Source of the DNA: a virus
DNA length: 64,000 nucleotides
IMG/VR virus record: IMGVR_UViG_3300017782_000002
Span: 55,817 to 119,816 of that record
Reading direction: 5' to 3' (one strand)
A program made the translations under genes and the position numbers. Positions within the stretch are counted from its first letter, which is position 1. Every line of letters starts with the position of its first letter. Shown here in pieces: positions 1 to 63,245 of the stretch. The notes beneath the pieces are model-generated. The model was not told the DNA's origin. It saw only the letters and a list, made by a program, of their open reading frames with translations, and ran no database searches.

Positions 1-516
1 ATGGACCCTACTTCTTTAAATTATAATCCTTGTGCTAATGTTGCATGTAGTAGCTGCTGTTGTTCAGTAGCAGGATGTATGGATGCAACAGCTGATAATT
101 ATAATGCTTCAGCTTGTTTAGATGATGGTTCTTGTGAATACACAGGATGTATGGATACTGCTGCTAGTAATTACAACTCTAGTGCAAACGTAGCATGTAG
201 TAGTTGTTGTACATACCCTGGTTGTACAAATGCAACAGCGTTAAACTATGATCCAAATGCTAATGTAGATGACGGATCATGTATATTACCTGTGTATGGT
301 TGTATGGATTCAACTGCTTTAAACTATAATGCAGCTGCAAACGTAGATGATGGTTCATGTACTTACTGTGTGTATGGATGTATGGATGCTACAGCGTCTA
401 ACTACAACTCTTTAGCTACATGTACTGACGGAAGCTGTACTTATCCAATTCAAGGATGTACTGACGCTAGTGCTTGTAATTATGATCCTCTTGCAACACA
501 AGATGACGGTTCTTGT
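1..516 (+). repeat. Seven GCTD/DDGSC protein repeats
   Basis: Imperfect tandem coding repeats of roughly 72-78 bases. Each encodes Gly-Cys-(Met/Thr)-Asp, an Asn-Tyr pair, and Asp-Asp-Gly-Ser-Cys; two units have a Cys-Ser-Ser-Cys-Cys variant instead. They are diverged at DNA level, so this is an old protein-level repeat and not a recent DNA expansion. Confidence 0.85.
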
Positions 517-1275
517 TTAACAGTTCCTACAATGGATCTTGGTTCTACAAACTTTGGTATTAATACTCCTAACTTATTACAACAAGATGGTAGTGGTGTT
601 AGTGGTCTTGGTTGTGCAACTTACTATATGCAAGCTTATCCTTATGAAGTAGGTGAGCCATTCTATGGTGGACACGTTACAAAAAATATTTCTGGTAGTT
701 TTGTTTTAGGTGGTACAGGTAATCATGTAGGAAATGTATGGACAGAATCTTATTTCTTTGAATTAGGTACTGATGCTGCAAATGGTAATCCTCCATTAAC
801 TATAGGTAATCAATATTGTATAACATGGGCTGAGATTGTAATGGCTTTAAGATCTAGTGGTCAATGTTCTGATTGTTTAATGGGAGGTTGGGGTGTTAGA
901 ATAGATCAAGGTACAGGTACTCCTACTACAGCTGATCTTAATAGTGCAACTAATTTATATGATCCTGTAGCTCTTGGTACTTTAAGTACAGCTAATGCTT
1001 TAATTCATAACTCTGCATGTCAAACAAACGATGTTGGAAATGCTAATGGTGTTAACTCACCAGGTGCTCCAAATGGAAGTCACTCTAATTGGGTTGACAA
1101 ATGTATTACGTTTACAGCTACTGCATCACAACACAGAATACACATGTATGTAATTACTGATTATAACCAATGTACTTCTTGTACTTCACATTCTGGATCT
1201 AGTGTCCACGGATCATACATGGGTATATCAAAAGTACAGATAAGTACAAGCTGTAGTGGTAGTTGTAATTGCTAG
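1..1275 (+). CDS. Repeat-rich adhesin/fibre-like protein, 5' end outside window
   Basis: The open frame is already inside a repeat at base 1 (the first unit lacks its leading Gly-Cys), so the ATG at position 1 is an internal Met and the gene starts upstream. Residues 1-172 hold seven copies of a Cys-rich unit of the form GC(M/T)D..A.NY...A..DDGSC, about 24-26 residues each. Residues ~175-424 form a Gly/Ser/Thr-rich, probably all-beta domain with several Cys and a CSGSCNC end. Such repeats occur in surface proteins of marine Bacteroidota. The C-terminal domain is not one I recognise; a carbohydrate-binding or receptor-binding role is a guess. The next genes also look like virion appendage parts. 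No secretion sorting domain is visible at this C-terminus, unlike the related-repeat protein at 57669-61022. Confidence 0.7.
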   Translation: MDPTSLNYNPCANVACSSCCCSVAGCMDATADNYNASACLDDGSCEYTGCMDTAASNYNSSANVACSSCCTYPGCTNATALNYDPNANVDDGSCILPVYGCMDSTALNYNAAANVDDGSCTYCVYGCMDATASNYNSLATCTDGSCTYPIQGCTDASACNYDPLATQDDGSCLTVPTMDLGSTNFGINTPNLLQQDGSGVSGLGCATYYMQAYPYEVGEPFYGGHVTKNISGSFVLGGTGNHVGNVWTESYFFELGTDAANGNPPLTIGNQYCITWAEIVMALRSSGQCSDCLMGGWGVRIDQGTGTPTTADLNSATNLYDPVALGTLSTANALIHNSACQTNDVGNANGVNSPGAPNGSHSNWVDKCITFTATASQHRIHMYVITDYNQCTSCTSHSGSSVHGSYMGISKVQISTSCSGSCNC

Positions 1276-48160: not shown

Positions 48161-48490
48161 ATGTCTGAAAAGAAAAAGGCTTATAAACCTTTACCTGAAT
48201 ACTTAGCTATTGGTCCTTCTGATATACATGGTGTTGGTATATTTGCTAAAGAGGACATCCCAAAAGGAGTTGACATGGGGATCACACATGTTTATGATTC
48301 TAATTTCCTACATGAGTATGTACGTACACCTTTAGGAGGTTTTGTTAATCATAATGAAAAGCCTAATTGTGAGCTTATAGAAGATGAGCAGGACATTGCA
48401 TATAAAAGAATTAGGACTACAGAAAGAATAGAGATGGGTAAAGAACTTACCCTTAAGTATTCTATGTATGATATTTGTAACTATCTATAG
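48161..48490 (+). CDS. Minimal SET-domain protein
   Basis: 109 residues, essentially only a SET core. It shows the three signature blocks in order: IHGVGIFAKEDIPKG (22-36, cofactor-binding GxG), GGFVNHNEKPNC (59-70, the NH.(C)xPN block that shapes the S-adenosylmethionine pocket), and IEMGKELTLKY (90-100, the GEELTxxY-like block with the active-site Tyr). SET enzymes methylate protein lysines; the target here is unknown and could be a host or virion protein. No pre- or post-SET Cys cluster is present. It starts 5 bases after the giant cargo gene, so it is expressed with virion genes. It could also be a SET fold reduced to a binding role. Confidence 0.85.
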   Translation: MSEKKKAYKPLPEYLAIGPSDIHGVGIFAKEDIPKGVDMGITHVYDSNFLHEYVRTPLGGFVNHNEKPNCELIEDEQDIAYKRIRTTERIEMGKELTLKYSMYDICNYL

Positions 48491-48640: not shown

Positions 48641-48690
48641 TAATTTATGTATTGATTATGGTTGTTGTCTTTGCTTTAGGTACTATGTAA
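48616..48690 (+). CDS. Possible 24-residue single-TM micro-ORF
   Basis: Encodes MKRIDITPVIYVLIMVVVFA and four more residues: a short basic start and one hydrophobic helix. It overlaps the nrdJ 3' end by 8 bases on the opposite strand and lies in the loop of the inverted repeat, so it may be chance. The strong membrane-helix character is the only support. Confidence 0.3.
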   Translation: MKRIDITPVIYVLIMVVVFALGTM

Positions 48691-50542
48691 TTTCACAGCT
48701 ACCACCAGCACAAGCTAACTCACCTTTTAAATCAGTATTATCATCAAGTTCTACAACCTTTGACAAGTCAACAGATGTAAGAGCTTTTAGTAATTCTTGA
48801 TACTTATCTTTTGAAATATCTTCAAATGGAGCTTGTGTATATGTACCACCGTTGTATGGTAATACAGCTAGACCATTATAACAATCTCTATTATCCCACA
48901 TCCATTTACCTGCTTTATCCCATTCATCTTCTTTCAAAGATACTGTTGCAGATACGTTGTGACTATTAGATCCTGTTCTGTGTCCATTACTTACCCAACC
49001 ATCTGAAATTAATTTGATACGTTTTAATAAATCAAATGCTGATTCAGTTCTTACTATAGAACCTTTTGGTGCTGCTTGTGGTATTGAAATAACAGCAGTA
49101 TCATGCGGTCTAAAGTATTCATCTTCTACTAATTCCGGGTGATTGTTTACCAAATATGTATAGATAGATTCATTTTTACCTACACGTAGTCTACGGATAT
49201 AAAAATCATTATGCCATGCATGAATACCAGAAGAAGTACCAAGAGTTAAAGATGTTGTACCAGCAGGTTTAACACATGTAGTTCTTGCTGCTTTATTTAC
49301 ACCAATCTTTTTTGCTATTCTTGCGTTCTCTCTTTTAACTAGAGATGCTGCTTCACCCATGTCTAATTTTAAAACTTTTCCACTAGCTATACCAGTCATA
49401 GATACACCAATAAGAGCATCCTTTTCTGTAGTTTCTTGCCAAATTTGTCTTAAGTAATGGAAATTAGTATAGCCAGCTTGCAATGTACCTATGAATGCTG
49501 CACCCTTTACTCTTTTGTTTAACTCTTCTTGTGTGCTAACATCTGAAACATTTACTTCACAAAGATTACAAAACTGATATGGACGTAAAGCAATTTCACA
49601 ACATGGGTTAGTACCCCAGTCTTTATCATTGTTAAAATAAATACCAGGCTCACCAGATCCAGAAAGTTCAATACGCTTCCATACATCTGTAAAAAAGTCT
49701 TTAGTAATTTTATGTCTCATTAATACAGCAGAGTTATTAGCTCTACCTCTTTGTGGATTTTTTTCCCACCAGTCACCTGACTTGCAAGAAATCATTTCAT
49801 CATCATGAGCACTAAAAAGACTAATAAGAGCAGCACGTCTAATACCTCCAGCTAATACTGCATCAGCAATATAACAAACTATATCATGAACTTCTAAAGT
49901 ACTTAATTGATCTCCATCTTCTTTATTACTTAGTATACCTTCTACTTTAAGTAAGCATTCTTTAAGTGGTTGAGGACCAGGAGCTTTACCACCAGATGTT
50001 ACGAGCCTAGCACCCTTTGGTCTAATATCTGAAAAATCAAATATGATCTTAGAAGATCTACCATTTAAATATGATTTCATTAATAATTTAACTGCGTCAG
50101 CCCAACCTTCTATAGAGTCACCAATTAAATATCTTTTAGTTCTTTTTGTATAAGGTTTGTTTATAGGAGGCAGTTGAGCAACATGATGATTTTGAACAGA
50201 ATAACCAACGCCTGTTCCACCTAACAACAAAAACATACACTCACTAAATGAATCAACATGATCTATAGGCATATAAGCACAATTGTATATTCTATTAGGA
50301 GCAATTTCAATTGGTTTACCACCAAATTGCATTGATCTCATTGATGGTAATATCTGTTTATCATAAACCATCTTATATACTTCTTCTATTTCATCTTTAA
50401 TGTGCGGGTATGACTTTAAGTGCATGTCCTTGTTTCTTGTAACTAATTCTTCCCATGTTTCTCTTCTGTTCAATTCTGGAAGATATTTAGCATATTTCAT
50501 ATGGACAGTAATATCACTTAGAATCTTGTTGTTTAATTCCAT
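48683..50542 (-). CDS. nrdJ: Class II (adenosylcobalamin-dependent) ribonucleotide reductase, monomeric type
   Basis: 619 residues from the ATG at 50542; a 37-residue upstream extension was rejected because it is Cys/hydrophobic, unlike the family, and lies over the predicted 5' leader. It reduces ribonucleotides to deoxyribonucleotides using a cobalamin-generated thiyl radical, feeding phage DNA synthesis. Visible residues are Cys88 (NCAY) and Cys325 as the likely disulfide pair, Cys314 in NPCCEI as the thiyl-radical Cys (family usually NPCGEI), the GEPGIYFNND region, the CVKPAGTTSLTLGTSSGIH phosphate-binding loop, and C-terminal Cys611/Cys616 for re-reduction by thioredoxin-like partners. 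It is the only clear minus-strand gene, with its own host-type promoter, which suggests early expression. No separate B12-binding domain or intein is seen. Confidence 0.95.
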   Translation of the reverse strand: MELNNKILSDITVHMKYAKYLPELNRRETWEELVTRNKDMHLKSYPHIKDEIEEVYKMVYDKQILPSMRSMQFGGKPIEIAPNRIYNCAYMPIDHVDSFSECMFLLLGGTGVGYSVQNHHVAQLPPINKPYTKRTKRYLIGDSIEGWADAVKLLMKSYLNGRSSKIIFDFSDIRPKGARLVTSGGKAPGPQPLKECLLKVEGILSNKEDGDQLSTLEVHDIVCYIADAVLAGGIRRAALISLFSAHDDEMISCKSGDWWEKNPQRGRANNSAVLMRHKITKDFFTDVWKRIELSGSGEPGIYFNNDKDWGTNPCCEIALRPYQFCNLCEVNVSDVSTQEELNKRVKGAAFIGTLQAGYTNFHYLRQIWQETTEKDALIGVSMTGIASGKVLKLDMGEAASLVKRENARIAKKIGVNKAARTTCVKPAGTTSLTLGTSSGIHAWHNDFYIRRLRVGKNESIYTYLVNNHPELVEDEYFRPHDTAVISIPQAAPKGSIVRTESAFDLLKRIKLISDGWVSNGHRTGSNSHNVSATVSLKEDEWDKAGKWMWDNRDCYNGLAVLPYNGGTYTQAPFEDISKDKYQELLKALTSVDLSKVVELDDNTDLKGELACAGGSCEIT

Positions 50543-50615
50543 TCTTTTAATTTTTAGTAAGGTTAATAATTGTGTAGTAAAACAAGATACTAAATTATCT
50601 TGAATTTGGCACGTG

Positions 50616-50648
50616 CAAATATACAAAAGTGAAAACAAAAAATCCAAA
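50616..50648 (-). promoter_or_regulatory. Bacteroidota-type promoter of nrdJ
   Basis: On the minus strand, TTTG (50648-50645) is followed after 21 bases by TATATTTG (50623-50616), an exact match to the TTG-N19-21-TAnnTTTG consensus of Bacteroidota primary sigma factors. It would give a leader of roughly 65 bases before the 50542 start, and would allow transcription by host RNA polymerase. Confidence 0.75.
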
Positions 50649-50826
50649 TTCAAACATGTAAGCTTGTCTTTCTTTTTTTTCTTTTAAAAAGAACCCATTA
50701 AACAATGTGTTTTCTAAATTAACCACGCTATAACAAAAGCCAATATTAATATTATTCCTTGAAATAATATGCAATTCAAAATTATGTTTTTTCATATGAT
50801 ATTGTTTTTTGTTAATGTAATTTTTT

Positions 50827-51174: not shown

Positions 51175-54100
51175 ATGTCTAGAAATTCAACCCATATAAA
51201 TTGTAATCAAGTTGCAGGAACAGTTAACCAAGGTATTTGGAAAAACGATTGTGATCCTTGTGCAACATCACCTTTTGCTATTAACAATATTACTGTTTGG
51301 CATAGGTTTAACTTTGGTGTAAATAATCACGCTACTCCTGCTGACATATTAGCTAACGTTGCTAATGCTGCTACTATATCACAATGGGATGATCAAATAG
51401 GCTCAAATGATGCTGAACAACAAACATTAGCTGATGCACCAACATGGTATTCTACAGATACTTCTCATAAAGTTACAGCAGGTAATCATTTTGATTTATC
51501 TTCTGCTATCACTTATGGTGCAGCTGCAGACTTTACAGTTTTACTTGCTTATGTGCCGTTAATAAATACAACTCCTTCAGGTCAAAAATTATGGGATCAA
51601 GCTGGTGGACAAAACTATCTTAAGTGGGATAGCCCTACTCAACTTACATTTAGATTAGCAGGACTTAATCATGTAGTAACAGGACCGGCTATACAATTAA
51701 CTGACTACACAAACTTTGTAGTTAGAAGATGTACAAACATGTGTCAAATATTTATAGCAGGTGTTCCATGGGGAGCTGCTTTCTTAGCAGCAGGTGCTTT
51801 AACAATAGAAAGATTAGGACCAGACGCTAATGGTTACATTGCTGCGCACATGCAATTTGACAGATGTTTAACTGATAAAGAAATATGGTGTCTTGATTGT
51901 TATAACAGTAATCAAAGTGATGAAGAAAATCCTGTAACATGTAATATAGGTGATTTTAAACTAGCTTGTAATGGTGATACAAACGGATCATTAACAGCAA
52001 CTATGTTTAATGCAACAGGAACTGTAACTTACTTATGGTCTCCTGGTGGACAAACAACACAAACAATAACTGGTCAAGGAGCAGGTACTTATACTTGTAC
52101 TCTTACTGACTCAGCATCTCCAGCAAATGTTTGTACAGCAAGCGGAGTTGTTACTGAACCAGTAGCTTTAGCATGTACAGTAACTGGAGTTAATCCTCAG
52201 TATATACTTAATAGTGCTGGCCAACAAATTTTAACAACAGGTAGTGTTTCAGCAGTAGCTACTGGAGGATATGGTGCAGGATGTACATTAACTTATGCAT
52301 GGACTAGAAACGGTAGTGCTATATCAAATGCAAATGGTGGAATGGCAGCTCCAGGTAATGTTGCATCATTTAATGTAACAGAAAATGGAGTTTATGCAGT
52401 AACTATAACAGATTGTTATGGTTGTACTACAACGTGTAATGTTACTATAACAATTCCTAACCCACCTAGTACTTTAGATATAGAATGTTGTTACGAAGCT
52501 GCAGGCTGTACAGATGAAGATATTAAATGGGCAATTATGTTAGACTCTACTGCAACTTTCCCTTGTACTATAACTGCATCTGGTTCTACATCAGGAACGG
52601 CTTCTTGGTCTCCTGTAACAATTTCTTCTTTACCTTCATCAACTTCAATAGACGGTTCTCAGTATGATATGTTCTCTTGTGAATCTAGCGGCCCTTGGGC
52701 TTATGGAAGTAATGCACAAAAGCTTTCTCCAGGTGAAACTTGGACGCTTACTGTAACTGACAGTTCTTCTCCAGCAAGGAGTCAAAGCTGTTCAGTTAAT
52801 ATAGTTAATCCTCCTGCTCTTACTTTAACATCATCAGTTACACAACCAACAATGTGTGAACATGGTGGATCTGTTTCTGACGGTGATATTACTTTTAATG
52901 GATCAGGTGGTAACCCAAATTGTAATCCGTGGACTTACTCAATAACTGGACCAAACAGTTTTTCAACTACTAATAACTATGTATTAAATGCAGCTCCAGG
53001 TACATACACTTTAACAGTGACAGATGCTTGTGGTTGTTCAGCAACACAAAATGTAACGCTGACTTGTCCAATAACAGCAGACATGACTGTAACTAATACA
53101 GATGTAAGCTGTAGACCAGTTCAAAGTGAATTAAACCCTAACCCACAAATACCTTGTGATGCAACGGCTACATTTACTGCAAACCCAACTTCAGTAACTG
53201 GATATACATTTGAAGCAATCCTTATGGATCCATCAGGTGTAGTTATATATAACTCAGGACAACTAGCAACTTTTAATGCTGCAACGGTTACTGGTTTATG
53301 TATTGGTAATTATACTTGGACTTATTTTGCTACTAACACAACTTCTGGTTTAACATATCAGGTAGACAGTGGATCGTTTACAGTTGCAGCTCCTCCCGCA
53401 TTAAGCGCAACAACAGTTGCTAACTTTATTCACTGCTTTGGAGGATCAACAGGAACAATTGATTTAACACCAAGCGGAGGAACACCTGGTTATACTTATT
53501 TATGGACAGCAGGAGCAACTGGAACAGTGCCTGCAGGTCAATCTACAAATCAAGACTTAACAGGTTTAGTATACGGAATATATTTCTGTACTATTACAGA
53601 TGCTAACGGATGTACTTTAACTATATCACAAAGTGTAAATGGATCAACTTGTCCTTTAACAATATATGGTATAGTACCAGAAATACCATGTCCTGGTCAA
53701 ACTACTAGTATTAAACAATTGTATATAACTTGTGGAACAGGTCCTTATACTTACGCATGGGTTGCTTCTAACGGTGGATCTTTAGGATCAAACTCATCAA
53801 CAGCAGATCAGTTAGTTGGCATAGGGGCAGGTACCTATACAGTTACTGTTACTGATGATAACGGTTGTACTGGAACTCAATCATGGACAGTAGTAGCACC
53901 TTCAGCAATATCTGGATCTATTACAGGAACAAACGTTGGCTGTAAAGGAGAAAGATCTGGAGCAGCACAATTTGACCAGTGGGCAGATCAACAATTTAGT
54001 GGAGCTAGTTACTTATGGACAACAGATGCAGGTTTTACAACACCTAACCCGTACGGACCATCTACCAACTCTTACATTAGTTCAGTACCAGCAGGAACAT

Positions 54101-55113
54101 ACTATTTACAAGTAACATTATCAAACGGATGTATTTGGACAGGTAGTATTGTAATAACAGAGCCTGGTACAGGAATGTCACTTAGTGCTGTTATAACAGA
54201 TGAGAATCAGTGTACTGATTGTTGTGGAGCAATAGACTTAACAGTTACAGGAGGGTCAGCACCTTACACTTTCCAATGGGATGATCCAGCTGCATCAACA
54301 ACCGAGGATTTATCGTGTGTTTCTGCAGGTGTGTATACAGTAATTGTTACAGATAATGCAGGATGTACTGCAACTGCTACATATACTGTAGGCGTAACCT
54401 ACTATCAGTTAACAATAGGTGTTGCATACGATAATACTACAGGTCAATTTACCACAACAGTTGGTGGAGGTAATCCTCCATACTACTACCAGTGGACTAA
54501 AAATGGAAATCCTTTCTCTTACGCACAAGATCCTTTTAGTGCAGGAAATGGTTACTACTGTGTAACTGTAACAGATTCAGTAGGATGTACTGGAACTACT
54601 TGTTACGATTTATCTAGAGAACCAAGAGGAGAAACAAGTTTTAACTGTCAAACTTACTCACCAACATTAGGTACAACATCATACGGATGTGTATCTGTAG
54701 CAGGAACAGGAGGTACTTACAGCACGCTTGCAGCTTGTCAAGCAGCATGTGAAGTTGAAAGACCTACTAGATATAGATGTCAAGAAGGAACTGGTTGTGT
54801 ATCACACCCTGGTGGAACATATACATCATTATCTGCATGTAATGCTGTCTGCGGTGCTTCTGGACAAAACGATATTAACTATGTTTGTGAAATCTTATGT
54901 AATGATAATGCATCAGGAGAAAGATATAAAACAACTGACGGAAGAGTTGATGTTGACGAAAGAGGTAATCCAGTTAGAGAAGACGCTGGAACTCCAGGTG
55001 GTAAATGTAGAGAAGAAAATTCTGAAACAGACTCTTCTTTAACTAAATACACAAGTTTTGAGCTTTGTAAAGCAGCTTGTCCTTGGTGTAAGGAAGGTAC
55101 TTATAAATACTAA
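51175..55113 (+). CDS. LamG-like plus SprB-repeat fibre/adhesin protein
   Basis: 1,312 residues. Residues ~35-245 look like a LamG/concanavalin-type lectin sandwich (FTVLLAYVPL, then LWDQAGGQNYLKWD, then FVVRR, then ending DKEIWCLDCYN). Residues ~250-1148 hold about ten Ig-like units resembling SprB repeats, with CxGxxxGxI..., GGTPGYTYLW and AGTYTVTVTDDNGC motifs; the cleanest are near residues 750-830 and 1010-1080. Residues ~1149-1312 are Cys-rich with three related modules of the form C...GGTY.sL.aC...C. SprB repeats are known from T9SS-exported gliding adhesins, but here there is no signal peptide or sorting domain, so a virion appendage is more likely. Host-surface or glycan binding is inferred. 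Confidence 0.8.
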   Translation: MSRNSTHINCNQVAGTVNQGIWKNDCDPCATSPFAINNITVWHRFNFGVNNHATPADILANVANAATISQWDDQIGSNDAEQQTLADAPTWYSTDTSHKVTAGNHFDLSSAITYGAAADFTVLLAYVPLINTTPSGQKLWDQAGGQNYLKWDSPTQLTFRLAGLNHVVTGPAIQLTDYTNFVVRRCTNMCQIFIAGVPWGAAFLAAGALTIERLGPDANGYIAAHMQFDRCLTDKEIWCLDCYNSNQSDEENPVTCNIGDFKLACNGDTNGSLTATMFNATGTVTYLWSPGGQTTQTITGQGAGTYTCTLTDSASPANVCTASGVVTEPVALACTVTGVNPQYILNSAGQQILTTGSVSAVATGGYGAGCTLTYAWTRNGSAISNANGGMAAPGNVASFNVTENGVYAVTITDCYGCTTTCNVTITIPNPPSTLDIECCYEAAGCTDEDIKWAIMLDSTATFPCTITASGSTSGTASWSPVTISSLPSSTSIDGSQYDMFSCESSGPWAYGSNAQKLSPGETWTLTVTDSSSPARSQSCSVNIVNPPALTLTSSVTQPTMCEHGGSVSDGDITFNGSGGNPNCNPWTYSITGPNSFSTTNNYVLNAAPGTYTLTVTDACGCSATQNVTLTCPITADMTVTNTDVSCRPVQSELNPNPQIPCDATATFTANPTSVTGYTFEAILMDPSGVVIYNSGQLATFNAATVTGLCIGNYTWTYFATNTTSGLTYQVDSGSFTVAAPPALSATTVANFIHCFGGSTGTIDLTPSGGTPGYTYLWTAGATGTVPAGQSTNQDLTGLVYGIYFCTITDANGCTLTISQSVNGSTCPLTIYGIVPEIPCPGQTTSIKQLYITCGTGPYTYAWVASNGGSLGSNSSTADQLVGIGAGTYTVTVTDDNGCTGTQSWTVVAPSAISGSITGTNVGCKGERSGAAQFDQWADQQFSGASYLWTTDAGFTTPNPYGPSTNSYISSVPAGTYYLQVTLSNGCIWTGSIVITEPGTGMSLSAVITDENQCTDCCGAIDLTVTGGSAPYTFQWDDPAASTTEDLSCVSAGVYTVIVTDNAGCTATATYTVGVTYYQLTIGVAYDNTTGQFTTTVGGGNPPYYYQWTKNGNPFSYAQDPFSAGNGYYCVTVTDSVGCTGTTCYDLSREPRGETSFNCQTYSPTLGTTSYGCVSVAGTGGTYSTLAACQAACEVERPTRYRCQEGTGCVSHPGGTYTSLSACNAVCGASGQNDINYVCEILCNDNASGERYKTTDGRVDVDERGNPVREDAGTPGGKCREENSETDSSLTKYTSFELCKAACPWCKEGTYKY
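51937..54618 (+). repeat. About ten SprB-like Ig repeats
   Basis: Diverged coding repeats of roughly 80-110 residues. Most end in a GTYT(V/C)TVTD...GC(T/S) strand followed by a short Pro- or Ser-containing linker. Divergence is high, with no DNA-level identity between neighbours. Repeat borders are approximate. Confidence 0.7.
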
Positions 55114-55131
55114 TATTGAATATAGGAAACT

Positions 55132-55428
55132 ATGGAAAAAGATATTAACCAAGAATTCATGCTTATGAAGTTAAAGATTGAGACGTTAGAGGAGAAGATA
55201 GATCACGTCAATGCAAAGTTGGGCGTCATAACAGAACATTTGCTGAATCCAGATCAAGGGTTTGTATCTAGAGTAAATAGAAATACTCAATTTAGAGAAG
55301 ACATAGGGCCTCTAGTAAAAGACATGTATGAAATAAGAAGATGGAAAAGTCAGGTGTCTAGAGTTCTTTGGATTATTGCAACAGGTATTATACTTGGACT
55401 AGTGGGATTATTATTTATGTTAAAATAA
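55132..55428 (+). CDS. XhlA-like membrane protein, holin candidate
   Basis: 98 residues. An N-terminal helix or coiled coil (residues 5-35, LKIETLEEKIDHVNAKLG) is followed by a charged middle and one C-terminal membrane helix (VLWIIATGIILGLVGLLF, ~79-96) ending in Lys. This matches the XhlA/hemolysin-like plan found beside phage holins and lysins. It is two genes ahead of the M15 endolysin, so a lysis role is plausible. It starts in an AACTATG context. Confidence 0.6.
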   Translation: MEKDINQEFMLMKLKIETLEEKIDHVNAKLGVITEHLLNPDQGFVSRVNRNTQFREDIGPLVKDMYEIRRWKSQVSRVLWIIATGIILGLVGLLFMLK

Positions 55429-55433
55429 GTAGC

Positions 55434-55967
55434 ATGGCGTGTTTAAGATTCAAAGAAATACAAACATATGCAGGCAGACTTTCTAAAACTATCTTAACAG
55501 GAGGTACTTCAGAAAGAACTCTACAAATTTTTGACTGCCCAAACAACAGAATTGCAAGAATTGTAAGATCTCACAACTTAGGTTTAGATTTATGGTATAC
55601 TATAGAAAGTGCTGATGGAGCGCAAACTAATTTGCCTGCAAGAACTTGGCATAACGGTCAAGAGTATGTAACAAGTAGTAGCTTTCAAACATCCGGCTCA
55701 GCAATTGTTATGGGTACAGGAGTACCTGCTGCAGGAACTCCTAATGCAATTGGTAATTTTGATGATGCTTGGGCAGCAGATGCTGGTTATGGTTATTCAG
55801 GTAGGGGTCTAGACTTAAGTGGTACATGGTTAGAAGGAGGAGATAAGATATGGGTTCATGATACATTTGATCATGAAGGTGCTACAGGTGTACCAACACA
55901 TCACCCTGCAGGATACCTTATATGTTTAGAAATATTTGATGTAGTAAATAGTGGTTGTCCAATTTAA
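55434..55967 (+). CDS. Hypothetical phage protein in lysis/fibre operon
   Basis: 177 residues from the ATG at 55434, 5 bases after the previous stop; a longer in-frame start at 55368 would run deep into the upstream gene and is rejected. The chain is Gly/Thr/Ser-rich and probably beta-sheet, with WHNGQEY, GYGYSGRGLDLSG and DTFDHEGATG segments and Cys near both ends. There is no signal peptide. It could be a virion surface or fibre-tip protein, but I do not recognise the family. Confidence 0.55.
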   Translation: MACLRFKEIQTYAGRLSKTILTGGTSERTLQIFDCPNNRIARIVRSHNLGLDLWYTIESADGAQTNLPARTWHNGQEYVTSSSFQTSGSAIVMGTGVPAAGTPNAIGNFDDAWAADAGYGYSGRGLDLSGTWLEGGDKIWVHDTFDHEGATGVPTHHPAGYLICLEIFDVVNSGCPI

Positions 55968-55976
55968 AAATAGATT

Positions 55977-56450
55977 ATGAAAAAGATTAGTGAACACATT
56001 AGTTACAAAGAAGCAATAACAAGTGCTACAGCTTTGAGAAGAGGTTTAGATAATACTCCTGGTCCTGAGCAATTAAAATGCATGCAAGAAATTGGTAGAG
56101 ATCTTTTTGAACCTCTTAGAGAGTGGGTTGAAGGTCCTATAAAAATAACTAGTATGTTTAGGGGAGAGCCTGTAAATACAGCTATAGGAGGTTCTAAAAA
56201 TTCACAGCATATGAAAGGTCAAGCTTTAGATTTGGATGATACATTTGGGTATAAAACAAATGCAGAGATGTATCACTATATAAAAGATAATTTAATATTT
56301 GATCAACTAATATGGGAGTTTGGAGATGATAATAATCCTAATTGGATACATGTAAGTTATGTAACTCATAGACCTAATAGAAAGAAGTGTACAGTTGCAC
56401 TAAAGAAAAACGGAAAGACAGTATATGAACATAGACCTATAGAGAAATAA
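55977..56450 (+). CDS. M15-family peptidase, endolysin
   Basis: 157 residues, the usual size of a single-domain phage M15_3 endolysin. The zinc site is complete: H78 in SQHMKGQALDLD, D85 in the same motif, and H125 in WIHVSY, with an upstream ITSMFRG strand. Such enzymes cut D-Ala-containing peptide cross-links of peptidoglycan. There is no signal peptide, so release would need a holin. The gene overlaps the next membrane gene (TAATGG), and the neighbours 55132 and 56450 are membrane proteins, which supports a lysis cassette. Confidence 0.88.
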   Translation: MKKISEHISYKEAITSATALRRGLDNTPGPEQLKCMQEIGRDLFEPLREWVEGPIKITSMFRGEPVNTAIGGSKNSQHMKGQALDLDDTFGYKTNAEMYHYIKDNLIFDQLIWEFGDDNNPNWIHVSYVTHRPNRKKCTVALKKNGKTVYEHRPIEK

Positions 56451-56734
56451 TGGCAAAGGAATTAAACGAAGACACTAGCTTTAAAATAAGTCTTAAAACA
56501 CTAGCAGGAATAGCGGTTTTAATTTTTACTATAGTGGGTATGTGGTTTGCACTTCAAGCTGATATAGAAGAAGCAAAGCAATTACCAGAACCACCACCAG
56601 CTCCAGTATCAAGAATGGAATTTGATATGAAAGATAAAAACATAAGATTGTCAATTGAAAACACAGAAAAAGCTGTTGATGAAATGAAAGTTGACCTAAG
56701 AAGAATGGAAGATAAAATAGATAAATTAAGATAA
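56450..56734 (+). CDS. Membrane-anchored coiled-coil protein, lysis candidate
   Basis: 94 residues. One membrane helix near the N-terminus (~19-35, GIAVLIFTIVGMWFALQ) is followed by a Pro-rich hinge (PEPPPAPV) and a charged coiled coil to the end (IENTEKAVDEMKVDLRRME...). This topology resembles inner-membrane spanins or tail-anchored holin partners. It overlaps the endolysin stop by one base (TAATGG), which supports a lysis role. No lipobox partner was found overlapping it, so an i-spanin call is tentative. Confidence 0.6.
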   Translation: MAKELNEDTSFKISLKTLAGIAVLIFTIVGMWFALQADIEEAKQLPEPPPAPVSRMEFDMKDKNIRLSIENTEKAVDEMKVDLRRMEDKIDKLR

Positions 56735-56756
56735 TAACTAATAAAGACTAAAAATT

Positions 56757-56828
56757 ATGACTAAATGTGCATGCGGTAAAACAAAAGCTGAGGACGGTTC
56801 ATGTGACGGTTCACACAAAGAATGCTAG
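56757..56828 (+). CDS. 23-residue CDGSH-type iron-sulfur micro-protein
   Basis: The encoded peptide has C4-A-C6-G-K-T...G-S-C16-D-G-S-H20, the three-Cys/one-His ligand set of CDGSH [2Fe-2S] proteins, ending in another Cys (C23). Known mini-CDGSH proteins of Bacteroidota have one residue fewer between the second and third Cys and usually a Pro; here the spacer reads GKTKAEDGS. CDGSH clusters serve redox or iron-sulfur transfer. Its start has an AAATTATG context, 22 bases after the upstream stop. It is only 2 bases from the next small gene, so it fits the operon. The size is extreme, and a working cluster would need a dimer. Confidence 0.7.
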   Translation: MTKCACGKTKAEDGSCDGSHKEC

Positions 56829-56830
56829 AA

Positions 56831-56968
56831 ATGGCAAAAAAAAGAAAACTAAATAGTAAGAACCCTAAGTATATGGATCAGTCTCAGTTGAATGAGAAAC
56901 CCATAAAGAAAAAAGTATTGTATACTGAAATTAAAGGGGTTAAAGTTTATGGAATTTGGTATGAATAA
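56831..56968 (+). CDS. 45-residue basic hypothetical protein
   Basis: Starts MAKKRKLNSKNPKY and ends KGVKVYGIWYE. It is Lys-rich at the front and aromatic at the end, with no membrane helix and no known family. It fits between the CDGSH peptide (2-base gap) and the exported thioredoxin-like gene, overlapping the latter's preferred start by 8 bases. The tight packing on both sides is the main evidence that it is real. Confidence 0.55.
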   Translation: MAKKRKLNSKNPKYMDQSQLNEKPIKKKVLYTEIKGVKVYGIWYE

Positions 56969-57320
56969 AATTAGTATAGCTTGGAAAATATTTATTGGAT
57001 ATATTCTGATATTAATATTTATGGTTGTTAGCTCAGAAGCTACAGGTCAAATTGTAGTTACACATTTTAATGCTGAGTGGAATGATCCAAACAAAGTTTC
57101 TTACATTGGTAAGCTAACAGATTGTGAGATAGTATATGTTGATATAGCTAAATCACCTAAACTACAAACTAAACATGAAATAGTAGTTGTACCTACTGTT
57201 ATTGTATTTAAAGACGGTGAAGAGATGAAAAGATTTCAAGCTGATATATCATTTAGTATGAAAGCAACTAGAAAAGATATGCAAGAAATAATTGATGAAT
57301 TAATAATGAGTGATTTTTAA
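56961..57320 (+). CDS. Exported thioredoxin-fold protein lacking the CxxC
   Basis: 119 residues from the ATG at 56961; an ATG at 56949 would add four residues. An N-terminal signal or anchor (KIFIGYILILIFMVVSS, then EATGQ) is followed by a thioredoxin-like pattern: VVTHFNAEWND where WCxxC would be, a YVDIAKSP strand, and VVPTVIVFKDGEE with the conserved cis-Pro. The active-site Cys pair is replaced by N-D-P-N, so it cannot act as a dithiol oxidoreductase. It may bind or hold a periplasmic partner. It overlaps the next gene by one base (TAATG) and precedes other exported phage proteins. Confidence 0.75.
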   Translation: MNKISIAWKIFIGYILILIFMVVSSEATGQIVVTHFNAEWNDPNKVSYIGKLTDCEIVYVDIAKSPKLQTKHEIVVVPTVIVFKDGEEMKRFQADISFSMKATRKDMQEIIDELIMSDF

Positions 57321-57668: not shown

Positions 57669-60600
57669 ATGAGAAAACTATTATTTATATTATTAGCAAC
57701 TATAATATCTTGTGTAGCACCAAAAAAATGTTGCTCACAAAATTCTTGGGTAAACTATCAAGTACAATATGATTTTTATGCACCATCAGAATCTAATTTC
57801 TTTATGGTATCTAATGCTAATGGTGATACAGCAATGTTTCATCAACCTACTACTCCTTATGAAACATTAGACACTACAATATTTATAGATTCAGGTTCTT
57901 ACACAGTTACATTAACAGACAGTTACGGAGATGGTTGGATTTCACAACAACCTGCTTTCTTTAGAATGCGTAACTTGTGTCAAGGTATGATAATTAATTG
58001 GGACCCAGTGTTAGGTTCTTTTTTTCTTAGAGATACTACTGTAAACATATTACCTTGTGCCCCACCTGTTTATGGTTGTATGGATCCGCTAGCATTAAAT
58101 TTTGATTCAAATGCTACAATTGATGATGGCTCTTGTATATATCCTCCATGTAATGGTGTTATTAATGACACTGCATTTCAAATGTGTTGGGGTAGTCAAG
58201 CAGCCATTTCTTTTGCATGGGAAACAACTAGCAATAACAATTGTGATGTAGTTAAATTATATTACGGTAGTGAAAGCGGTTATAGTATTACTGTCCCTGG
58301 ACTTTGGCCATCAGGTGGCTGGAGAGATTGGGCTACTGCTGCTGGCCCTGGTCAAATGCCTCCTAACTGGACTGAAGAACATTATTTAGTATTAGAATTT
58401 GCTGACGGTTCTTTAGCAGATACAATGTTTTTTACACCGTATGCTTGTATACCTGGGTGTACAGATCCAACACAACCATCATATAATCCTTGGGCTACTA
58501 TAGACGATGGGTCTTGTTCAGGTACTATATGTGATACAGCAACAGAATATCAAATAACAATGGAGCTTACACTTGACAATTGGCCAGGTGAAACATCATG
58601 GTTAATGAATAGTGGTGGTGTAATAGACAGTGCTATTATAGGTACATATAACTTTAATGATATTGGTCAAACTTTTACATACAATTTTTGTATAGATCAA
58701 GGTGCTGGATTTGAATTAATACTTAATGATTCATACGGAGACGGTTTAGCCGGTTCTACTTCTGGAGGTTCTTTAGATGGTAATGTAGTTATATATGATT
58801 GTAATGGAGATACTATATGGATGCTACCTGATCCTGATTTTGGTTATACTGCTTATTCATCTCCTCTTAATGGCGTACCGTGTAATATAACACCTCCTGT
58901 CTATGGTTGTACAGATGATGATTATGTAGAGTATAATTCTTTAGCAACCGTTGATGACGGTTCATGTTCAACATTACATATTTATGGTTGTACTGACCCA
59001 GCTGCATTTAACTACGACCCTAATGCAACAATACTAGATTTAGTTCCTGATTGTAATTATAGATTAATCTTAGAAGATGACGCTGGAGATGGTTGGGGTA
59101 ATTCTTATTTAGGTATAACACAAGGCCCTATGAGTTGGACTTATACAATAGGTCCTGGTATATATAGTGATACCTTTAATATAATATTAGATTCTGATGT
59201 TCCTGTAAATGTATATTACTTTGAAATAGGAGGACCACAAACTCCACCTGAAGAAGTTCAATTCCAAACATGGCATAATTCTTTTAAATTAATAAATGTT
59301 TATGATGATGTACTATTAGAAGAAGGAACAAATCCTTTTGCTAACAACGGACAAGGAGCACTGCAAGCTTTTGATAGTCCTTTCTGGAACAAATATACAG
59401 CAGTACCAAATTGTGGTGATTACTGCATACCAACAATTTTAGGATGTTTAGACGCAACAGCATTTAATTATATACAACCTGTGGGTGATTCATTAATAGA
59501 TGTAAATACTAGTGATGGATCATGTATGCCTGTACTACTAGGATGCACAAACCCAATTGCATTTAACTATGACTCTTTAGCAAACACAGACGATGGATCA
59601 TGTGTAGCTGAAGTAATAGGATGTATGGATACTGCAGCATTTAATTTTAACCCAGCTGCAAACACAAATGATCCAGCATCATGTATTCCTGTAATATATG
59701 GTTGTATGGATGATACACAATTTAATTACAACCCAGCTGCTAATACAGATGACGGATCTTGTATACCTGTAATCTTTGGATGTACTGACGCATTAGCTTT
59801 TAATTATGACAGCTTGGCTAATACAAACAATAATTCATGTATTCCATTTATATATGGCTGCACCAATCCTGCAGCTCTAAACTATGATCCATTAGCAAAC
59901 ACTGATGATTCAACATGTATAGGGATCATATACGGTTGTACTGATATTACAATGCACAACTATAATCCTTTAGCTAATACTGACAACGGATCATGTATAC
60001 CGTTTATATATGGGTGTACAGATTCAACACAGTTTAATTATGACCCTACAGCAAACACTAACAACGGTACTTGTGTACCATTTATATACGGCTGTACTGA
60101 TCCAAGCGCATTAAATTATGACCCCTTTGCTAATACAGATGATTTTAGCTGTGTTTTACCTATCTATGGGTGTATGGACAGTACAGCCTTTAATTACGAT
60201 CCACTAGCTAATGTGGATAATGGATCTTGTCTGCCAATAATATATGGTTGTACAAATCCTATAGCTTTAAATTACTGTGATACTTGTAACACAGATGACT
60301 TTAGCTGCATACTTCCTATATATGGATGTACAGACAGCACTATGTATAACTATAATCCTCTAGCCAATGTTGACAATAATTCTTGTATACCTTTCATTTA
60401 TGGGTGCACTGACCCTACTATGCTTAACTACAACCCATCCGCTAATACGGAAGACTTTAGTTGTATCTCTTTCATTTACGGTTGTATGGATAGTACTGCT
60501 ATTAACTATGATCCGTTGGCTAATACTGAAAATGGTTCTTGTATTGAAGCAATTGTCGGATGCATGGATCCAAATGCGTGGAACTTTAACCCAGAAGCAA

Positions 60601-61022
60601 ATGTAATATTAGGACATGATTCATTAGGTTGTTTATATGCAGCTAACTGTACTGCAACAGAACCTGGAGAACCATACTTTTTAAATGATGGTTGTTATGC
60701 TTGGGTTATAGATGTAGATGATTATTGTTGTAACAATGAGTGGGATGACATATGTCAAGCTACATACAATTATTGTTCTGATGGTTGGACAGGACCACAA
60801 CCTCCTGCTAGAATTGCTGGAGAAGATATATTTTTATATCCAAATCCAACTAAAGGTCTGTTAAATATTAGTAAAGAAGCAGACATTGAAGTGTATAATC
60901 CTTTAGGTCAAATGATAATAAAGAGAGAAAATATCACTATATTAGATATGAGCACCTTAACTAAAGGTATTTACACCATTAAAATAAATAAATTAATAAC
61001 AAAACAAATAATTAAAAATTAG
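57669..61022 (+). CDS. Phage-encoded T9SS-secreted repeat protein
   Basis: 1,117 residues. The N-terminus is a signal peptide (KLLFILLATIISC, then CCSQ|N); a lipobox-like IISC is also present, so lipoprotein processing cannot be excluded. Residues ~25-130, ~160-260, ~285-410 and ~450-580 are beta-domain-like. GC(T/M)D...DDGSC repeats begin at residue 136 and form a regular 26-residue tandem array from 625 to about 989; I count 19 units in all. The last 69 residues match a type A T9SS C-terminal sorting domain: YPNPTKGLLNI (1057 on), IEVYNPLGQ, LDMSTLTKGIYTIKI, and a Lys-rich end. It would be exported through Sec and then the host T9SS to the cell surface. Function unknown; surface masking or adhesion is inferred. 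Confidence 0.85.
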   Translation: MRKLLFILLATIISCVAPKKCCSQNSWVNYQVQYDFYAPSESNFFMVSNANGDTAMFHQPTTPYETLDTTIFIDSGSYTVTLTDSYGDGWISQQPAFFRMRNLCQGMIINWDPVLGSFFLRDTTVNILPCAPPVYGCMDPLALNFDSNATIDDGSCIYPPCNGVINDTAFQMCWGSQAAISFAWETTSNNNCDVVKLYYGSESGYSITVPGLWPSGGWRDWATAAGPGQMPPNWTEEHYLVLEFADGSLADTMFFTPYACIPGCTDPTQPSYNPWATIDDGSCSGTICDTATEYQITMELTLDNWPGETSWLMNSGGVIDSAIIGTYNFNDIGQTFTYNFCIDQGAGFELILNDSYGDGLAGSTSGGSLDGNVVIYDCNGDTIWMLPDPDFGYTAYSSPLNGVPCNITPPVYGCTDDDYVEYNSLATVDDGSCSTLHIYGCTDPAAFNYDPNATILDLVPDCNYRLILEDDAGDGWGNSYLGITQGPMSWTYTIGPGIYSDTFNIILDSDVPVNVYYFEIGGPQTPPEEVQFQTWHNSFKLINVYDDVLLEEGTNPFANNGQGALQAFDSPFWNKYTAVPNCGDYCIPTILGCLDATAFNYIQPVGDSLIDVNTSDGSCMPVLLGCTNPIAFNYDSLANTDDGSCVAEVIGCMDTAAFNFNPAANTNDPASCIPVIYGCMDDTQFNYNPAANTDDGSCIPVIFGCTDALAFNYDSLANTNNNSCIPFIYGCTNPAALNYDPLANTDDSTCIGIIYGCTDITMHNYNPLANTDNGSCIPFIYGCTDSTQFNYDPTANTNNGTCVPFIYGCTDPSALNYDPFANTDDFSCVLPIYGCMDSTAFNYDPLANVDNGSCLPIIYGCTNPIALNYCDTCNTDDFSCILPIYGCTDSTMYNYNPLANVDNNSCIPFIYGCTDPTMLNYNPSANTEDFSCISFIYGCMDSTAINYDPLANTENGSCIEAIVGCMDPNAWNFNPEANVILGHDSLGCLYAANCTATEPGEPYFLNDGCYAWVIDVDDYCCNNEWDDICQATYNYCSDGWTGPQPPARIAGEDIFLYPNPTKGLLNISKEADIEVYNPLGQMIIKRENITILDMSTLTKGIYTIKINKLITKQIIKN
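59541..60635 (+). repeat. Tandem 78-base coding repeats (14 GCTD units)
   Basis: Fourteen adjacent units of 26 residues (one of 27), each of the form GC(T/M)(D/N)..x.NY(D/N)P.ANT(D/N)(D/N)xSC followed by a hydrophobic linker such as IPFIY. Units are diverged in codons. Five other units lie scattered upstream between 58074 and 59520. The conserved Asp/Asn positions suggest calcium binding, as in thrombospondin type 3-like repeats, but that is an analogy only. Confidence 0.9.
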
Positions 61023-61027
61023 AAACT

Positions 61028-61732
61028 ATGGCAACCTTAAACGCAACGCTCACACTGGCTAGCTCAGATGTGACTACAGATCCATTAAGCTTTACTTTAA
61101 CAAAAGCTTTATCTGTGAAACCACCAAACATTGGTGTATCTAGAGCAGTAGCTCCAATTAATACACCTACAACACTTGTACCAGCTAGTGTTGATAATAA
61201 ATATGCATACGTAAAACACATGTCACTTAAATCTGACGGTACAACTGCTTCTACAAATACAGTAAATATTGCAACTATAGGAGACGGTGCACCTGTTAGA
61301 GAAGTTAGTACAATTACTTTAAATGCTGATTTAGTAGCAAGTAATTCAATAGTAGTAACAGTAGACGGTACAGCTTTATCTGCAATTAATTATGCAACTT
61401 CACATGCAGCTACATTTACCGCAATTGCAACAGCTATTCAAGCAACAGCAGGTGTGTTAACAGCAACAGCAAATGGTAGAGTAATAACCATAACAGGAGC
61501 TAATCCTGGAGATCCTTTTACAATTGCTATGACAATTACTGGAGGAGCTTCTCAACCTTCTTTAGGTGTAACAGAAACTACAGCAGCAAGCGGTGCAGCA
61601 TTTGCTCAATTATCACCAGGTGAATTTGTATTTATACCAGTAAAAGCAGGAGAAGGTTTATCTGCATTAGCTTCAGGTACAGTATCAGCTGATGGTGTAT
61701 TATTAGAATACGCTTACTTTACTAAACAGTAA
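61028..61732 (+). CDS. Beta-rich virion-like protein with Ig-like insert
   Basis: 234 residues, Ala/Thr/Ser/Val-rich, no signal peptide. Residues ~95-180 (ITLNADLVASNSIVVTVDGT, then YATSHAATFTAIATAIQA, then ANGRVITITGANPG) match a module common in phage fibre and capsid-decoration proteins. The flanking parts (SRAVAPINTPTTLVPASVDNKY, then SPGEFVFIPVKAGEGLSA) look like one strand-swapped structural domain interrupted by that module. It starts 5 bases after the T9SS-cargo gene in an AACTATG context. A virion surface role is likely. Confidence 0.6.
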   Translation: MATLNATLTLASSDVTTDPLSFTLTKALSVKPPNIGVSRAVAPINTPTTLVPASVDNKYAYVKHMSLKSDGTTASTNTVNIATIGDGAPVREVSTITLNADLVASNSIVVTVDGTALSAINYATSHAATFTAIATAIQATAGVLTATANGRVITITGANPGDPFTIAMTITGGASQPSLGVTETTAASGAAFAQLSPGEFVFIPVKAGEGLSALASGTVSADGVLLEYAYFTKQ

Positions 61733-61736
61733 TAAA

Positions 61737-62777
61737 ATGATTAGACAACTGATATTAATACTACTTTGTTTACCTCTATTTAGTTTTGGCCAATTAGATT
61801 TAAAGAAAACTTTTAAATTTTCTACATTCTATGGTGCAATAAATGGAGGTACATCTATATCAGACGTTGATATATATTCTGTTACAAACGGTCTTGAAAC
61901 TCAAACTATTGAAACCCCGTATGATTATTCAGTATCATTAGGGATACGAAAGATTGCAAGATTTGGATATGAGAACAGAGCTAATACATTTTACGATGGT
62001 ACAGAGACATCATTTTCAGATGCAGCAACGATAGGAAAAGTAAAAGGTTTAGAGTTTTTATTTGAAGCTGACTACCGAAGAGTACAGGGTGTAGAGTACT
62101 TAGATCAACAACACTTTATTAGGTATGTTGAAAACAAATGGCTTACTAAAATAGAATATCTAAGAGATGGTTTTGCAGACATTGAGTATTTTGAAATGTC
62201 TGAAAGATATAAATATGAAGTAAATAATAAGTTATCTTTAAACATAGGGTTAGCACATAGAATTGCTGAGCCATATGGATTTGATCCTCTAGAAGAATGG
62301 AAGCTGAGTAATGGGAATTTGCATTACACATATTTAGCTTTACAAGAAGGATATAATGTTGATGTATTTAACAGTGAATATTATGACCCAGCTGGGAATG
62401 TTGTTGCGACAAGCTCAGAAGTATGGGAAGCCGTAGTTATTCCTGAAGTACTTCAAGATTATACAACTAGAAAAAGAAATAAGCTTCCTTCACAATGGAA
62501 CCATTCTTTAGTTGTAGGATTTGATTATTACTATTACACTAAAACTTTTTGGACACATGCTTGGGCTAACGTTATGCCTTGGCACTATAATGATGGAGGT
62601 GAATACTCTTATTTTAATTTTAATGATGGAAAACAATGGTATGATTATTCTGGTGGATTAATATTTGGAACTAAGATAACTAAACATTTAGGAACATTTG
62701 TTGAAGGTACATATAACAAATATTGGAACAGAACCTGGTATGATTTTAAGCTAGGCATTAACTATATAATATTTTAA
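61737..62777 (+). CDS. Predicted outer-membrane beta-barrel protein
   Basis: 346 residues. There is a clear signal peptide (RQLILILLCLPLFSFGQ, cleaved near G|Q as usual in Bacteroidota). The rest consists of alternating amphipathic strands rich in Tyr, Trp and Phe, and it ends in LGINYIIF with the terminal Phe typical of BAM-inserted barrels. Strand-like segments include YDYSVSLGIRKI, LEFLFEADYRR, LSLNIGLAHRI, HSLVVGFDYYYY and GTFVEGTYNKY. No TonB box or plug domain is seen. Phage-encoded outer-membrane proteins elsewhere exclude superinfecting phage or replace receptors; that role here is inferred. It is downstream of the T9SS cargo in the same transcription direction. Confidence 0.75.
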   Translation: MIRQLILILLCLPLFSFGQLDLKKTFKFSTFYGAINGGTSISDVDIYSVTNGLETQTIETPYDYSVSLGIRKIARFGYENRANTFYDGTETSFSDAATIGKVKGLEFLFEADYRRVQGVEYLDQQHFIRYVENKWLTKIEYLRDGFADIEYFEMSERYKYEVNNKLSLNIGLAHRIAEPYGFDPLEEWKLSNGNLHYTYLALQEGYNVDVFNSEYYDPAGNVVATSSEVWEAVVIPEVLQDYTTRKRNKLPSQWNHSLVVGFDYYYYTKTFWTHAWANVMPWHYNDGGEYSYFNFNDGKQWYDYSGGLIFGTKITKHLGTFVEGTYNKYWNRTWYDFKLGINYIIF

Positions 62778-62779
62778 AA

Positions 62780-62938
62780 ATGAAAATAGATTGGATAAAT
62801 TCTTGGAGACAAGGAAATAAAAAAGACAATATCTATGATGTGTCTATTAGATTAGGAAGATTTACAATACTAGAAATGTATTGCAATCCTGGTGTAGATC
62901 ATAGATTTATAATACTTAATTTTGGATTTAAACTTTAA
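62780..62938 (+). CDS. 52-residue hypothetical protein
   Basis: Begins MKIDWINSWRQGNKKDNIYD and continues with beta-like segments (VSIRLGRFTILEMY, HRFIILNFGFKL). There is one Cys and no signal peptide. It starts 2 bases after the outer-membrane gene and ends 5 bases before the next micro-ORF, so its packing supports it being real. Family not recognised. Confidence 0.5.
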   Translation: MKIDWINSWRQGNKKDNIYDVSIRLGRFTILEMYCNPGVDHRFIILNFGFKL

Positions 62939-62943
62939 TAACT

Positions 62944-63030
62944 ATGAAAAAAATATTTTGTAAAGTAATAAAAACAATAACTTTTGGTAAAGTTTGTTTA
63001 GGATGGTGCTCAATAAAATGTAGCAAGTAA
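62944..63030 (+). CDS. 28-residue Cys-rich basic peptide
   Basis: Begins MKKIFCKVIKTITFGKVCLG and ends WCSIKCSK. It has Cys at 6, 18, 22 and 26, with eight Lys. Its stop overlaps the next ATG by one base (TAATG), as in true coupled genes here, and its start has the AACTATG context. It could be a small membrane-active or metal-binding peptide. Confidence 0.5.
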   Translation: MKKIFCKVIKTITFGKVCLGWCSIKCSK

Positions 63031-63245
63031 TGAATATATTTAAAGATAATAATGATTGGAATGAAAAAAGTATTATAGGAGCTATTGCTTTTGTAATAAT
63101 GGTTCTTGTTATGATATTAGATTTATTAACAGGTTGGTTAGGGAGAGATCTAGCTATTAATGAATTTGTATATGACTCATTTGTTTGGGTTGTTTTAGGA
63201 TGTTTTGGGATAGCTGGTATAGAAAAATTTGCTAATAAGAAATAA
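63030..63245 (+). CDS. Two-TM holin candidate
   Basis: 71 residues. A short N-terminal charged part (NDWNEKS) is followed by two membrane helices (~15-34, IIGAIAFVIMVLVMILDLLT, and ~48-63, DSFVWVVLGCFGIAGIE) and a basic end (KFANKK). Size and topology fit a class II holin, and similar proteins occur in marine phages. It is 6.6 kb from the endolysin, so a non-lytic membrane role remains possible. Confidence 0.6.
   Translation: MNIFKDNNDWNEKSIIGAIAFVIMVLVMILDLLTGWLGRDLAINEFVYDSFVWVVLGCFGIAGIEKFANKK

Follow-up and report, generated by a model that had tools for sequence, protein, structure and literature searches.

A predicted outer-membrane β-barrel encoded with a type IX secretion cargo in a four-gene envelope module of marine phages

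What use does a phage have for an outer-membrane (OM) β-barrel whose gene lies close to that of a protein with a type IX secretion system (T9SS) sorting domain? The question is raised by the window, the 64 kb stretch of DNA analysed here, with which a 119,816-bp IMG/VR virus record ends. A preliminary description had placed at 61737-62777 a phage-encoded OM barrel, 0.7 kb after a T9SS cargo, that might exchange or block a phage receptor in the infected cell.

The open reading frame falls exactly there (61737..62777, + strand, ATG start, 346 aa), and its annotation as an OM β-barrel gene draws on the ORF, AlphaFold, fold matches and orthologs. The Bacteroidota-type signal peptide described earlier is present as the leader MIRQLILILLCLPLFSFG|Q (residues 1-18, judged by eye). 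Leaders of the 162 distinct full-length orthologs all have a hydrophobic core; 104 are SPI-like (..AQ/GQ), 51 are lipobox-like with C(A/V)APKKCC(S/G)Q, four have another lipobox and three are of other kinds. The aromatic-rich, amphipathic strands and C-terminal Phe that had been read from the protein also hold up. Aromatic residues make up 19.5% of the mature barrel, versus 5-12% of ten other window proteins; the alternation of lipid-facing and lumen-facing residues over 12 strands beats shuffles, only 42 of 5000 of which reach the observed score; and F is the last residue in 116 of 162 orthologs. Within the strands, conservation is 0.86 at lumen positions versus 0.68 at lipid positions.

AlphaFold2 modelling and a structural search had been proposed as checks, and both point to a barrel. 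Modelling predicted one with either ortholog set: 49 orthologs gave pLDDT 77 and pTM 0.73, and 102 gave the better model (pLDDT 80, pTM 0.72), which has 12 strands at residues 30-38, 63-72, 104-116, 119-131, 135-144, 149-161, 166-177, 253-267, 271-283, 303-313, 318-329 and 332-343. Segment 77-101 is of low confidence, and a 75-residue insertion (178-252) is folded and confident. In Foldseek and VIA-align searches of the PDB all best matches are OM barrels, among them NanC/KdgM, CymA, OmpG, Tsx, OMPLA, BamA/TamA and autotransporter domains; since these tie with one another and are generic, with no TM-score above 0.39 by query length, they support the fold class and not a specific family. An OMPLA-like phospholipase was set aside for the same tie, OMPLA being among the first-model fold matches together with other barrels. 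The best structural match in BFVD is a viral protein of 342 aa, A0A516LKJ4 (E 2.9e-24, TM 0.65), which is 23% identical to the barrel; tblastn in this comparison gave no match in the GenBank phage collection.

From its export signal, even-stranded amphipathic barrel and aromatic C-terminus, the product is predicted to be an OM β-barrel, and the strand count and fold matches suggest that the barrel is closed. Given 12 strands and periplasmic termini, the insertion would point outward, as would the conserved tight turns GFAD 145-148 and WN 330-331, and the variable tight turns 132-134, 162-165, 268-270 and 314-317 would face the periplasm. The lumen holds nearly invariant charged residues: R71, E106, R129, K138, E140, R157, R175, D263, D303 and E323.

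The family is found in phages. Searches of the barrel protein and its alignments against Pfam, NCBIfam, PHROGs and PDB sequences gave nothing significant, so that the gene adds an OM barrel family absent from Pfam, NCBIfam and PHROGs. A tblastn search of 50,697 GenBank phage records found nothing meaningful, and the barrel HMM, run without a positive control, had no match in PTm1, phi17:2, Fpv20, crAss001, phi14:2 or Lbo-JY46. A single-protein query retrieved 71 relatives in viral contigs, an alignment query found at least 396 barrel-bearing IMG/VR contigs in one scan, and queries from divergent members added further clades. Matches in a collection of 85k genomes were confined to four MAG contigs; one of these, a 3.8-kb contig labelled Nitrosopelagicus, an archaeon (L074), is probably a misbinned phage contig. 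Among 395 Bacteroidota genomes there was one strong match, on a contig of the Flavobacteriales MAG used as centre. The median dN/dS of the barrel is 0.057 and the maximum 0.14 (213 close pairs, distinct orthologs). Judged from sequence comparison, the barrel gene belongs to the phage core and is kept by strong purifying selection; it is not a recent capture of a host gene. Together with the predicted fold and the phage terminase (TerL), portal, major head protein (MCP) and DNA polymerase encoded on the record, this phage-only distribution bears out the description of a phage-encoded OM barrel.

The same record encodes a phage GroEL (L273:5039-6655; phrog_5725, E 3e-156). Its terminase shares about 25% identity with the terminases of crAss-like and Flavobacterium phages, and its giant structural protein has distant relatives in Cellulophaga, Flavobacterium and Leptolyngbya phages. 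By the terminase, the barrel-bearing marine phages appear as a large, uncultured and distantly crAss-like lineage. Both contig ends fall within tail-fibre sequence, so the record may be near-complete with its ends meeting there. The barrel lies on the late strand, with lysis-type genes on one side and tail fibres on the other, and the window gene order is M15 endolysin, coiled coil, thioredoxin-like, nuclease, cargo, 234-aa gene, barrel and holin-like gene. The M15-type endolysin (55977..56450, +), a neighbouring lysis gene, was assigned by Pfam/PHROG-type family searches, and the 71-aa protein at 63030..63245 (+), with two TM segments, is holin-like by topology alone. Immediately after the barrel comes a small protein of 52 aa (MKIDWINSWRQGNKK..., 62780-62938), and a family related to it (motif WINSW.KGNKK) is present in 36 loci. 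Farther away are a 109-aa protein (48161-48490) that looks SET domain-like by eye (IHGVGIFAKEDIPKG, GFVNHNEKPNC, GKELTLKY) and has a PHROG match without known function, and, on the minus strand opposite to the late genes, a region (48683-50653) with matches to B12-dependent ribonucleotide reductase.

Neighbour clustering and profile counts show that three genes constantly accompany the barrel: those of the repeat cargo, of a 94-aa coiled coil and of a thioredoxin-fold protein. In the window the 94-aa protein (56450..56734, +) has a single TM segment, a Pro-rich linker and the coiled coil. The thioredoxin-fold protein (56949..57320, +; Thioredoxin 1.3e-4) is exported and has FNAEWNDPN at its active site; in its family FNAxWNxxN replaces CxxC, which occurs in the first 80 residues of 9 of 245 distinct sequences. 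All three partners lie near the barrel in 116 of the 119 distinct orthologs that have 5 kb on each side, a count that leaves out loci fetched through the coiled coil query, and the module spans at most 7.7 kb (median 4.65 kb). 'Cargo' in this count means a repeat or a tail motif; at 48 of the 119 loci the cargo ORF is complete and its C-terminus fits the strict motif as well, and the cargos inspected among the rest have closely similar tails outside the strict pattern. Reciprocally, of 39 coiled-coil loci flanked by 5 kb, 38 have a barrel. Since searches return the most similar loci first, these counts describe the sampled part of the family. This near-universal four-gene module is our main new result.

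Gene order within the module varies. Of 141 orthologs with 5 kb flanks, 80 have the coiled coil as the next gene after the barrel. Of the 92 cargo genes that immediately precede a barrel gene, 63 overlap it by 4 nt and 11 by 1 nt, and 14 are spaced from it by 1 nt; such stop-start spacing in 88 of the 92 pairs suggests translational coupling. The cargo-upstream arrangement clusters on the barrel tree (at least 10 changes, 17 by parsimony, against a shuffled mean of 48.7). A different clade has a 2300-3300-aa gene immediately before the barrel and the cargo downstream, and in many genomes, including that of the window, a gene intervenes between cargo and barrel. In the window, as had been noted, the barrel starts 715 bp after the cargo stop at 61022; between them, with intergenic gaps of 5 and 4 nt, lies a gene (61028..61732, +) for a virion-like 234-aa protein that lacks a signal peptide and had no match in family searches. 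The proposed link to the T9SS cargo is strengthened by the orthologs, through the cargo's presence nearby in nearly all of them and the usual 4- or 1-nt overlap where the two genes adjoin.

The cargo itself (57669..61022, +, 1117 aa) has about 16 repeats of GCTDPxxxNYDPxANTDDGSC and ends in a type A sorting domain (PF18962 1e-9; TIGR04183 1.8e-8). In other loci (L007, L008, L009, L064, L088, L097) a short C-terminus, VTDILGRPxxxxxNxLLFFIYxDGTVEKKxxK, replaces the type A domain; the two examples searched (L008, L088) were unrecognised by NCBIfam. The barrel is equally conserved beside cargos with these tails, which makes recognition of one type of C-terminal domain (CTD) by the barrel unlikely. 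The cargo leader is lipobox-like (SCVAPKKCCSQ). Leaders of the form C(A/V)APKK/DCC(S/G)Q occur on many barrels (L002, L004, L006, L010 and others) and on a few cargos, including the window cargo (57669-57740), and among the clear gene families of the examined loci the CxAPKKCC leader is confined to these two. It is found on either the barrel or the cargo, as if swapped between both genes; mutual exclusion (CxxPKKCC never on both) was rejected as a pattern, the expected numbers being too small for meaning. Cargo-type Cys/Asp repeats (GCTDPTASNYNAAATVDDGSC; GCTDPxxxNYDP) are also carried by a 1609-aa protein that lacks a signal peptide and whose gene lies immediately ahead of the structural genes (record 52262-57091; L428:763-5592; window 1-1275 is the 3' part). 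If that protein were on the virion, one could speculate that the exported cargo repeats compete for the same ligand. All 21 relatives of the Flavobacteriales MAG with such a phage contig have PorP/SprF and 20 of them have PorV, and from these gene contents the likely hosts of barrel phages probably possess a T9SS.

A barrel gene beside a T9SS cargo invites comparison with PorP/SprF. PorP/SprF barrels are the partners of type B cargos in F. johnsoniae and P. gingivalis, and their genes commonly come immediately after those of the cargos (PMC12618676, PMC9143113). Cargos with a type A CTD in the systems known so far depend on PorV, a general shuttle, rather than on a cognate barrel (PMC12618676), and the type A domain of our cargo therefore counts against a partnership with the barrel. 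Membership in the PorP/SprF family (PF11751) fails: the barrel has no Pfam or NCBIfam match to it, hhalign against 15 PorP/SprF proteins aligns the signal peptide alone (probability 26%), and the neighbouring cargos carry a type A CTD (TIGR04183) or a short, unassigned tail and not a type B CTD. In a control, hhalign links PorP to PorV weakly (28%), which leaves room for a very remote homology to PorP/SprF. PorV itself (PF19572) was rejected by sequence profile, with no Pfam match and an hhalign probability of 0.5%. As to fold, the FadL-type barrel has 14 strands and the phage model 12, and in the fold search the T9SS complex chain 8gl6_F, which we take to be PorV, scored Z 9.1, tied with many unrelated barrels. 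PorP/SprF chains are absent from the fold-match lists, an absence that excludes nothing. By analogy with these systems, the barrel may still be a functional partner of the cargo.

Our preferred reading, at a probability of about 0.4, is that the module remodels the envelope, with the barrel as partner or anchor of the repeat protein exported by the T9SS. Hundreds of marine phages carry the barrel, nearly always with the three envelope genes, and the set is thus probably a surface-rebuilding kit. The infected Bacteroidota cell would insert the exported 12-strand barrel through its own Sec and BAM machinery, making it the OM member of a compact late module of four genes with which the phage remodels the host envelope; the host T9SS would carry the repeat protein to the cell surface, and the inner-membrane coiled coil and the redox-dead periplasmic thioredoxin-fold protein would be the other parts. 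The barrel may then capture or anchor the repeat protein at the outer face via its conserved extracellular loops and 75-residue insertion, so that the infected cell or its debris is coated and re-adsorption is reduced or adhesion altered. Against this partnership, co-location may reflect merely a shared status as late envelope genes. A stricter version, for which we see rather less chance, is a dedicated T9SS display kit, with a surface repeat protein, a cognate non-PorP/SprF barrel and periplasmic helpers, by which host secretion recoats the cell. We found no description of T9SS use as a phage strategy in the literature searched, and to our knowledge the use of the host T9SS by a phage envelope set has not been described. 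If true, very common phages of marine Bacteroidota carry core envelope genes that exploit host type IX secretion, and the module would be a clear entry point to phage effects on the cell surface of these bacteria.

The receptor exchange suggested earlier finds no support, because no cellular homolog of the barrel was found and it is therefore no receptor copy taken from a host. Blocking is a different matter: the barrel could be a superinfection-exclusion factor that binds, jams or masks the phage's host receptor, protein or glycan, with the other module genes merely sharing its late timing. We consider this unlikely. Phages do make OM exclusion proteins, such as T5 Llp, which acts on FhuA, but exclusion genes are often early (PMC9586334) and the barrel is in a late block beside lysis and tail-fibre genes. 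The large folded insertion on the putative outer face would suit such a role, whereas the high conservation of the lumen and of several outer turns is unlike a diversifying surface. Capsule and OM proteins are what crAss-like phages need on their hosts (PMC10136315). The barrel had no homolog among host OM proteins in the genomes searched, and nothing ties it to a particular receptor. The repeats shared by the cargo and the non-exported 1609-aa protein would fit competition for one ligand, but exclusion leaves the obligate co-occurrence with three other envelope genes unexplained.

The lysis genes nearby suggest another use, in which the barrel and the inner-membrane coiled coil form a spanin-like bridge that disrupts the OM after endolysin action. 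The M15 endolysin and holin-like gene, and a single-TM coiled coil that follows the barrel directly in 80 of 141 orthologs and is among its neighbours in 116 of 119, argue for it. Known o-spanins, however, are small lipoproteins and not barrels, the periplasmic part of the coiled coil, about 55 residues, would be short for bridging the periplasm, and its weak Rz-like matches (best E 0.018) are non-significant, the best PHROG match having no known function. As the T9SS cargo also goes unexplained, we give this reading little credence. We judge it equally improbable that the barrel is a channel by which uptake into the infected cell or leakage from it is changed, for instance of nutrients during phage production: the charged, nearly invariant lumen residues and the best fold matches, the small channels NanC/KdgM, CymA, Tsx and OmpG, are consistent with it, but those matches are unspecific, with TM-scores no higher than 0.39 by query length, and the linkage with cargo, coiled coil and thioredoxin-like protein is unaccounted for. 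Assembly into the virion, suggested by the position among virion genes and, in one clade, directly after a 2300-3300-aa gene, is very improbable given the export signals on nearly all orthologs and the barrel architecture.

Two kinds of known system resemble the envelope-remodelling module. Superinfection-exclusion OM proteins of phages, which besides T5 Llp include phi80 Cor, PA-2 porin Lc and lambda Lom, are like the barrel in being phage-encoded envelope proteins made in the infected cell, and the lipoprotein-like leaders of some barrel orthologs add to the likeness; the barrel differs in having 12 predicted strands, no sequence relation to any host OM protein found, and a place in a late module. 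SprB-SprF of Flavobacterium johnsoniae and PorP-PG1035 likewise join an OM barrel gene to a large repetitive T9SS surface protein. Compared with them, the phage barrel has no sequence or profile similarity beyond the signal peptide and the genes are phage-borne, the cargo CTD is of type A instead of type B, and two further envelope genes accompany the phage pair.
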